Positions 31,737 through 33,669 of a stretch of 64,000 bases of DNA are shown one piece after another. The notes under the pieces are model-generated. The model was not told the DNA's origin, ran no database searches, and was given only the letters and a program-made list of their open reading frames with translations. The translations under genes and the position numbers were made by a program. The DNA comes from Turicibacter bilis. Its GTDB lineage: Bacteria > Bacillota_I > Bacilli_A > MOL361 > Turicibacteraceae. Numbering within the stretch: the stretch's first letter is position 1; the number at the start of each line of letters is the position of its first letter. The stretch is from contig NZ_CP071249.1 in NCBI RefSeq assembly GCF_024499055.1, forward strand, positions 868,001 to 932,000, in the 5' to 3' direction.

Positions 31737-32120
31737 TTAGTCAATCCAAATTCGAATTTTAGCATCTTTCGTATCAATCGTCATTAGATCTCCCATTACC
31801 TCTGAATCAATCAGTGCTAAAATTTCTTCAATATCTAGATTAACATTTTCACCGACTTTAGCATTTAATTGCTTTTGAACAATTCCCATTTTTAGAACGG
31901 CTTTAGCTAAATTTAATGGAAAATTAATTTGAACTGTTTCTTTTTCTCCCTCTTCCGTCGATAATATGTCTAATCTTAAGAATCGTCCTATCGGGTGTGA
32001 ATTTACTCGGGCCACTTTTTGTTCAGATTTTTGCATAGCTTGAATCAGTTTCTGACCTTCCTCCGATGTAATGACACCACTTTCTATCATTTTTAATACT
32101 CGTATTAATTCTTCACTCAT
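31737..32120 (-). CDS. small YvlB/LiaX-N-like protein A
   Basis: A 127-residue protein. The N-terminal 35 residues (SEELIRVLKMIESGVITSEE, then GQKLIQAM) form a SHOCT-like helical hairpin as in YvlB/LiaX N-termini. The middle INFPLNLAKAVLKMGIVQKQ and the C-terminus TIDTKDAKIRIWID are strongly shared with the next gene, showing duplication. Last gene of a four-gene operon. Start at the ATG at 32120 (AAAGGA upstream). Role unknown; YvlB/LiaX relatives belong to the envelope-stress response. Confidence 0.6.
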   Translation of the reverse strand: MSEELIRVLKMIESGVITSEEGQKLIQAMQKSEQKVARVNSHPIGRFLRLDILSTEEGEKETVQINFPLNLAKAVLKMGIVQKQLNAKVGENVNLDIEEILALIDSEVMGDLMTIDTKDAKIRIWID

Positions 32121-32147
32121 TTTAATCATCCTTTCTAGCTAAAATCA

Positions 32148-32528
32148 TTAATCAATCCAGATTCGTACATTTACTGAATTACGATCAATAGTTATTAAAT
32201 CACCAATGGAATCTAGATTAAGCAAATCTATCATCTCATCTAAATCCGGTTCAATTCCAGTTCTAGTCTGCGCCTTAATTTGTTTTTGAATAAATCCCAT
32301 TTTTAAAACAGACCTTGCAAGATTAAGAGGAATATTGATTTCAATGACTTCTTCTTCTTTGTCATGGCTGTCTACATTAATGTGTAAAAAACGTCCCGTC
32401 ATCCCCTGATTCACCTCATTAACTTTTCGATGTGCTGTATCAATCACCTTGATCAACGCTTGACCATCTTCTGACGTAATAACACCACTTTCTATCATTT
32501 TTAAAATCTTTCCTAACTCATCACCCAT
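32148..32528 (-). CDS. small YvlB/LiaX-N-like protein B
   Basis: A 126-residue paralogue of the downstream neighbour, with DELGKILKMIESGVITSEDG, INIPLNLARSVLKMGFIQKQ and TIDRNSVNVRIWID in the same positions. No membrane segment or signal, so cytoplasmic. It lies 27 bases before protein A and 15 bases after the DUF2089 regulator, so one transcript is likely. Function unknown. Confidence 0.6.
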   Translation of the reverse strand: MGDELGKILKMIESGVITSEDGQALIKVIDTAHRKVNEVNQGMTGRFLHINVDSHDKEEEVIEINIPLNLARSVLKMGFIQKQIKAQTRTGIEPDLDEMIDLLNLDSIGDLITIDRNSVNVRIWID

Positions 32529-32543
32529 ATAAACTCCCCCTCT

Positions 32544-32906
32544 TTATCGTTTTAAGCACTCAGTTGCCTCCTCAACAGTGATATCCCCTCGTTCAAGCTG
32601 AGATAAACTATCTTGTTTATCGATTGTTTCTTGTCCTGTTGTAAACCCTAATCCTTGAATTGTTTGATCAAGCATTCGTCTAACGGTTGGATAAGAGATT
32701 CCAAGTTCACGTTCAACCTCCTTAATATTCCCACGATTTTTAATAAAGACTATGGCAAAATTTAATAGTTCCTTATCTAAATAACAAAATTCATTTAATG
32801 TGTATTGACCATTAATTTGTGTTTTACATCCTTGGCACGTCAATTGTGTAACTAAAAGTCGTTTATAGCAAATAGGACAATGTCCCAACACTTCGTACTG
32901 TTTCAC
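32544..32906 (-). CDS. DUF2089 zinc-ribbon HTH protein, probable regulator
   Basis: A 120-residue protein typical of DUF2089. It has an N-terminal zinc ribbon with two CxxC pairs (CPIC and CQGC), then EFCYLDKELLNFAIVFIKNR, then a helix-turn-helix GNIKEVERELGISYPTVRRM. The C-terminal 30 residues (DSLSQLERGDITVEEATECL) repeat the helical hairpin seen in its three operon neighbours. It likely binds DNA and may bind the neighbours through that hairpin; the latter is inference. Confidence 0.75.
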   Translation of the reverse strand: MKQYEVLGHCPICYKRLLVTQLTCQGCKTQINGQYTLNEFCYLDKELLNFAIVFIKNRGNIKEVERELGISYPTVRRMLDQTIQGLGFTTGQETIDKQDSLSQLERGDITVEEATECLKR

Positions 32907-32917
32907 CTAAACCCTCC

Positions 32918-33292
32918 TTACTTTGTCATAATTTTAATAACCGTATTTTTAGACTTCACATTAATAAACTCAAGTGGTGGATACTCCTTCATAATCTTCA
33001 GCACTTCTTCTAAGTTTACTAAAATAGTCTGTATCTCTTCTTTACTAAACTTTCCATTAATAGCCTCTTGATCAAACTTAATAAAAGGAGCACATAATCT
33101 AAAAAAACTTTTAATCAATCCAAATGAAACTGCCGGCAAATATATTCTCTTCCCATCATCGACAATAAATAATTTAATCTTCTTAGCACGATGCTTTTGT
33201 CGCCGTTTTGATTCTTTTTCAATCTCTTTAATTGCTTGCTGAACTGTCAGACGTCCGTCTTCGATTTTCTCTAAAACATAAAGATATGACAC
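32918..33292 (-). CDS. small YvlB/LiaX-N-like protein C
   Basis: A 124-residue protein, first in the operon and more divergent. The N-terminal hairpin YVLEKIEDGRLTVQQAIKEI is followed by a basic stretch (KESKRRQKHRAKKIKLFIVD), a middle segment and a C-terminal ending INVKSKNTVIKIMTK that parallels the IRIWID end of proteins A and B. I choose the GTG at 33292 (AAAGGAG upstream); the frame's first TTG at 33313 has its ribosome site too close. Confidence 0.55.
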   Translation of the reverse strand: MSYLYVLEKIEDGRLTVQQAIKEIEKESKRRQKHRAKKIKLFIVDDGKRIYLPAVSFGLIKSFFRLCAPFIKFDQEAINGKFSKEEIQTILVNLEEVLKIMKEYPPLEFINVKSKNTVIKIMTK

Positions 33293-33372
33293 TTTAAGCT
33301 TCTCTCCTTTCAATTCCTACGTCTCTACATTACCATTATACTCCACGAATCTAAAAATCCAACTCCATAATT

Positions 33373-33402
33373 AATAATATTAATATATAAATTAATATTA
33401 TT
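33373..33402. promoter_or_regulatory. AT-only inverted repeat upstream of the DUF2089 operon
   Basis: AATAATATTAAT, 6 bases, ATTAATATTATT: perfect 12-base arms, 81 bases before the first gene. It could be an operator or just AT-rich structure. Confidence 0.35.
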
Positions 33403-33555
33403 TAAAAAAACAATATATTTTTTGAAAAATAATTAGCTTTAAATAACTGTTACTGTTTTATATCATTCAATCGTTATTCTAATTCAATGAGCACAAAATA
33501 ATTTTCAAGCTAATTTAATATGATATCCCCCGTCCTTAAAACAAAGACAATAATA

Positions 33556-33590
33556 AAAAATAGTTGCCGAATAAATCGACAACTATTTTT
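33556..33590 (-). terminator. terminator after spoVM
   Basis: Stem AAAAATAGTTG.CGA/TCG.CAACTATTTTT with a T-run on the minus strand, overlapping the spoVM stop codon. Confidence 0.85.
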
Positions 33591-33669
33591 AATGTTTTTT
33601 AAAGATGTTCATAATACCTACAACAATTGCACTGATCCATTTTGGTAATTTAATCGTATAAAATCTCAT
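33589..33669 (-). CDS. spoVM: stage V sporulation protein SpoVM
   Basis: 26 codons encoding MRFYTIKLPKWISAIVVGI and a short basic end, matching the amphipathic-helix protein SpoVM of B. subtilis (MKFYTIKLPKFLGGIV...) in length and sequence, with Pro9 kept. SpoVM marks the forespore surface by binding curved membrane and anchors the coat protein SpoIVA. GGGGAG precedes the ATG. Position between thiN and rpmB is the same as in Bacillus, which strengthens the call. Confidence 0.93.
   Translation of the reverse strand: MRFYTIKLPKWISAIVVGIMNIFKKH

Follow-up and report, generated by a model that had tools for sequence, protein, structure and literature searches.

A DUF2089 regulator and its X-domain partners in Turicibacter bilis: a conserved gene unit with a predicted operator

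What do four small genes that lie between spoVM and rpmB in Turicibacter bilis do together, and is their common hairpin the joint of a single complex? The DNA analysed here (the window; 64,000 nucleotides of NZ_CP071249.1, positions 868,001 to 932,000) belongs to a genome of one 2.79 Mb contig, and a sequence-only reading of it had described a DUF2089 regulator with three partners, all sharing a SHOCT-like helical hairpin by which they would assemble.

The gene run and its domains

From the window ORF list, it is clear that the four genes are indeed consecutive. They form a compact minus-strand run in the order S-R-A2-A1 with intergenic gaps of 11, 15 and 18 bp, and rpmB follows downstream on the opposite strand. 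The 26-codon minus-strand ORF at 33589-33669 (MRFYTIKLPKWISAIVVGIMNIFKKH) reads as SpoVM, for which a place upstream of rpmB is, we take it, the usual one. The run begins at 33313 if S starts at a TTG, or at 33292 if it starts at a GTG behind AAAGGAG (ORF 32918-33292); the GTG is the more likely start, and it agrees with the end given to S in the earlier reading. The features are:

31737..32129, minus strand: A1, hairpin plus X domain, acidic (net charge -4), 130 aa, paralogue of A2
32148..32528, minus strand: A2, hairpin plus X domain, acidic (net charge -8), 126 aa
32544..32906, minus strand: R, DUF2089 regulator with zinc ribbon, HTH and C-terminal hairpin (the hairpin at family level), 120 aa
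32918..33313, minus strand: S, hairpin plus X domain, basic (net charge +11 from the TTG start)
33335..33362, minus strand: predicted promoter of S, TTGGAT at 33357-33362, 16 nt, TATAAT at 33335-33340
33370..33405, minus strand: predicted operator, two ATTAATNNNATTAAT palindromes 21 bp apart, from motif comparison
33556..33590, minus strand: terminator-like hairpin between spoVM and the operon

In Pfam searches R matched the zinc ribbon PF22747 (2.4e-12) and the DUF2089 HTH domain PF09862 (3.6e-22), both over the cut-off, and the SYPTV stretch in its HTH core is invariant across 28 relatives, up to Chloroflexi. The hairpin model PF22746 (SHOCT-like_DUF2089-C) passed its cut-off in A1 (4.5e-7), fell under it in A2 (6e-5) and S (0.006), and was not significant against the window R alone (12.6 bits, E 0.49). 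Since 26 of the 28 R relatives do match, as do all 13 A relatives, the C-terminal hairpin of R appears to hold at the family level. R can thus stand as a zinc-ribbon DNA-binding protein with a family hairpin, as had been supposed, and the hairpin claimed for all four proteins exceeds the cut-off in A1 alone, with support for A2 and S coming from their families.

A1 and A2, about 48% identical overall, have a C-terminal domain in common, here called X. This sharing had been noted for two partners; it extends to S, which in profile-profile alignments matches A over its whole length (probability 97.5, E 8e-12) and is, judged from these alignments, a diverged copy with both hairpin and X domain. 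Some S proteins of 97-106 aa lack the hairpin, indicating that it is dispensable in S. In the AlphaFold2 monomer model of A1 (pLDDT 84), a two-helix hairpin and a low-confidence loop precede X, which folds as two strands, three helices and two strands; the S model, of moderate confidence (pLDDT 71), has the same order of elements with one helix fewer. X is covered by no Pfam or NCBIfam model, a sequence search of the PDB gave nothing meaningful, the best structural hit that Foldseek found there for the A1 model had E 0.06, with none at or below 0.001, and the NCBIfam and PADLOC searches returned nothing convincing. X is an uncatalogued domain that would deserve a family model of its own.

Two variations on these domains were seen elsewhere. 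One Acholeplasmatales family has R proteins without most or all zinc-ribbon cysteines that keep the HTH, hairpin and operator (L130:4502-4870, L132:5101-5469, L135:5404-5772 and L136:5084-5473), and extra small genes between R and A can encode a hairpin without X (L214:3424-4017 and L197:2522-2863).

Conserved order, charge pattern and X-domain fusions

Scattering of the genes in other genomes had been named as the observation that would speak against a cassette. Among 86 distinct R loci, the order was S-R-A in 64, R-A in 15 and S-R in 2, with neither partner in 5, four of which hold distant DUF2089 proteins; these fractions are not a census, the loci having been fetched partly by similarity to A. 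A search for related loci with A2 alone as query found none. The genes are not scattered, and the cassette is conserved to that extent; the conserved unit, on the evidence of gene order, is the three-gene S-R-A and not a four-gene one, A being duplicated in this genus. Another genome of the genus (L039) has S-R-A, and in two more (L073 and L074) the spoVM-rpmB site holds S-A-A and S-A with R gone. Taken together with the S-R-A loci, these indicate that certain Turicibacter genomes have a second copy of A, and that R can disappear while S and A stay.

Two identical IS200-like transposase ORFs lie upstream of S in one of the genomes without R (L074:6096-7320). In Izemoplasmatales (L139-L149, L151 and L154), a micro-ORF, some 34-45 codons long and K/R/Y-rich at its end, stands between R and A.

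These observations bear on the proposal that all four proteins form a fixed, hairpin-built multi-subunit complex. The presence of the hairpin in A1, A2, S and the R family speaks for such an assembly, but some S proteins do without it, R has been lost in some genomes and a single A is usual, so that we regard the fixed complex as quite unlikely.

The partners differ consistently in charge. Across 72 S-R-A sets, the net charge of S averages +7.8 (positive in 68) and that of A averages -6.1 (negative in all 72). S also has a more hydrophobic segment than A, reaching a Kyte-Doolittle value of 2.15 in an Izemoplasma and 1.36 in the window, where S was not predicted to be a membrane protein. Because the window segment reaches only 1.36, membrane contact of S here is something that we infer. 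In three Chloroflexi loci (L207, L209 and L216), proteins adjoining A show an apparent membrane segment, as read from sequence, between hairpin and X.

In many genomes X follows a Cro/C1-type HTH within one fused protein (HTH_3, 1e-17 in the example tested), and a short S-like gene often comes next (8 of 21 by a strict count that misses overlapping pairs). The fusions point to an action of A-type X domains on DNA-binding proteins. The survival of S and A without R in two genomes, however, argues against a reading in which S and A control an autoregulated R. Their persistence at the same site in these same-genus genomes speaks for S and A as the working parts (for example, membrane-protecting ones) that make no contact with R, with R setting their dose and the hairpin reflecting common ancestry. 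We consider this unlikely, in view of the Cro/C1 fusions and of the same kind of hairpin in R itself.

A predicted operator, its promoter and its outputs

Reading 41 upstream regions together revealed repeated ATTAAT units. In 49 such regions, exact ATTAATNNNATTAAT occurs 20 times, against 0.18 copies expected from dinucleotide shuffles, and 73 times against 2.8 in shuffles when up to one mismatch is allowed. Copies most often lie 21 bp apart, and next most often 9, 42 and 30, meaning that half-sites alternate 9 and 12 bp apart. A tandem site, accepted with up to 5 of 24 mismatches, was found in 76 of the 94 cassettes that contain R and in 1 of the 52 X-domain loci that lack it; within the class of lowest GC content, the figures are 42/47 with R versus 1/7 without. 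Some loci were counted twice because they appear under two names, and the related species among them are not independent of one another. When 512 upstream regions belonging to the other genes of these loci were scanned, 35 matched; from their position and a reading of the list, nearly all are divergent neighbours that share the cassette intergenic region.

The site also occurs in one Diplocloster and one Eubacteriales locus, outside the group where the motif was first seen, and 0 of 1000 shuffles reach either match. Chloroflexi sites are weak (reached by 30/1000 shuffles in L208 and 243/1000 in L199). Within the genus, the R-bearing relative with S-R-A has a weak tandem form (5 mismatches, 8/1000 shuffles), and the two genomes without R have no tandem site upstream. 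In a plain inverted-repeat scan the window site had seemed unconserved, terminators dominating the same-genus upstream regions. A site before another gene in one genome (G169) was set aside, since a reversed control gives as many matches there.

In the window, the copy at 33370-33384 is exact and that at 33391-33405 has two mismatches, a tandem site that none of 1000 shuffles matched. With up to 3 mismatches, the tandem pattern occurs once in the whole genome, upstream of S, and the reversed control gives 0. Exact single copies of ATTAATNNNATTAAT number nine genome-wide; the other eight lie inside coding sequence and were taken as chance. A looser tandem pattern gives further genome matches with 2-3 mismatches, eight of which are one repeated sequence, the identical 36-mer TTTAATCACTTTAATCTTGTTATTAATCCCTTCAAG (C1:3654, 691001, 1026735, 1347786, 1568955, 2128978, 2654032 and 2759917), which is probably part of a repeated mobile element.

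An operator in the cassette promoters is thus well supported by motif comparison, and R is the likely binder of the predicted tandem palindromes because the site tracks the presence of R, a correlative argument that falls short of measured binding. The ATTAAT arrays might instead have nothing to do with R and belong to the AT-rich make-up of the promoters, for example as UP-element-like sequence, the regions being strongly AT-rich. This we find very unlikely: the palindromes are exact and kept in a 21 bp register, the arrays are absent from GC-matched X loci without R and from R-less relatives, and the tandem form is single in the genome.

In the window, a poor -35 box and a perfect -10 box 16 nt apart make up the predicted promoter, with the operator 7 nt away. 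When each locus was represented by its best promoter match, the gap between the last operator copy and the -35 downstream of it was 7-9 nt in 25 of 55 loci; in another 8 it was 17-19 nt, and in a further 6 it was 28-29 nt. In this way 39 of the 55 gaps fall at one-helical-turn steps, as would be expected if R always reaches RNA polymerase along the same side of the helix. We lean towards activation of the window promoter, with repression as a strong rival. As an autorepressor, R would block the promoter by binding the palindromes, and S and A would act as anti-repressors or co-repressors; an operator that overlaps the -10 or lies just after it in several loci (L170 and L181 among them), with some sites 9-31 nt downstream of the -10, fits such repression. 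The helical-turn spacing upstream of the -35, which the window has in common with most loci, and the poor -35 box of the window stand against it, and autorepression seems to us possible, on the less probable side.

An ABC or MFS exporter lies directly downstream, on the same strand and within 300 bp, in 34 of the 86 R loci. Of these, 19 have ABC half-exporters and 15 have an MFS exporter, the family assignments having been checked and upheld on examples. In Izemoplasmatales and Acholeplasmatales, this link suggests what such switches control. An unlinked MFS exporter with the operator upstream was found in two Izemoplasmatales genomes (3 and 4 mismatches), and the operator is absent before two other close relatives of that exporter (L273 and L279), so that this second link is only suggestive. 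In the T. bilis genome itself, the operator is absent before the nine closest ABC half-exporters; the operon is therefore the sole visible target, and the proposed output here would be S, R and A alone.

Taken together, we give an even chance to S-R-A being an autoregulated signalling operon, in which R acts on palindromes at its own promoter and S and A modulate R; the switch is probably membrane-linked. In this scheme R would bind the tandem ATTAATNNNATTAAT beside its own operon's promoter and act as an oligomer, the copies lying two helical turns apart, and would probably activate the promoter with its poor -35 box in the window. The paralogous X-domain proteins, basic and more hydrophobic S and acidic A, may pair together and hold or modulate R through the shared hairpins, S being the likelier membrane-side partner. 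Membrane disturbance would then alter the hold of S and A on R, inducing the operon together with any attached exporter. Of this, the sequence itself shows the run of genes with its domains and kept order, the operator-like sites, the linkage to exporters and the charge pattern; binding by R, pairing of S with A, docking through the hairpins, membrane sensing and the direction of control are deduced from it.

Comparison with known systems

The closest published treatment, a comparative genomic survey of PSP systems from 2024 (PMC11237479), distinguishes a zinc ribbon, an HTH and a SHOCT-like part within DUF2089, places it in a four-gene Toastrack context and proposes membrane-linked control of transcription. 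The window R has the same three parts, with the hairpin at family level, and in the Chloroflexi loci L199 and L208, as well as in L042, R stands beside Toastrack or Toastrack-like genes, as in the contexts described in that paper. The Toastrack-like repeat protein of L199 (1738-2895) itself ends in a SHOCT-like hairpin (PF22746, 2.2e-8). Unlike the contexts described there, the window cassette has no Toastrack, PspC, LiaI-LiaF-TM or sigma factor gene adjoining, and the partners carry X; the run consists of S, R, A2 and A1 only, and none of the four proteins matches DUF4097 (Toastrack, PF13349). The X pair, the operator, the Cro/C1 fusion and the exporter coupling were not found in the passages of that paper that were consulted, and the literature searched contained no DNA target or binding site for DUF2089. 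The earlier remark that such a cassette has no described function was thus nearly right, except that PMC11237479 predicts that DUF2089 contexts link membrane signals with transcription.

DUF2089 genes also adjoin ABC exporter genes in leaderless bacteriocin clusters, as in the exporter-linked loci described here; the proteins there are short forms of 89-98 aa (EntDD14, PMC7332713; bawcin, PMC10707071). The suggested link to envelope stress is supported in that relatives occur in the membrane-stress contexts proposed in PMC11237479; membership in YvlB/LiaX itself fails in that the partners have no DUF4097. An N-terminal hairpin of similar kind is common to YvlB, LiaX and the window partners, and an envelope-stress setting is likely for both; YvlB and LiaX have DUF4097, whereas the window partners have X and are encoded with DUF2089 and not with LiaFSR.

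In PspF-PspA and lia-type membrane stress operons, a regulator and its modulators are autoregulated, and a partner may contact the membrane. The comparison is of the works-like kind only: the cassette also puts a regulator and modulators in one operon, but has no PspA, AAA+ activator or two-component system. Somewhat short of an even chance, we put forward a new kind of module in Bacillota and Chloroflexota, in which an X pair controls either DUF2089 or a Cro/C1 HTH, with exporters as a frequent output. If true, a basic, membrane-leaning X protein and an acidic one would act on DUF2089 via hairpins and on the Cro/C1 HTH via fusion, and DUF2089 would gain its first predicted binding site. Set against the passages of PMC11237479 that were consulted, the cassette appears ordinary in its parts and new in its partner pair and its testable predicted operator, which, together with the Cro/C1 fusion, make the uncharacterised DUF2089 family open to experiment.
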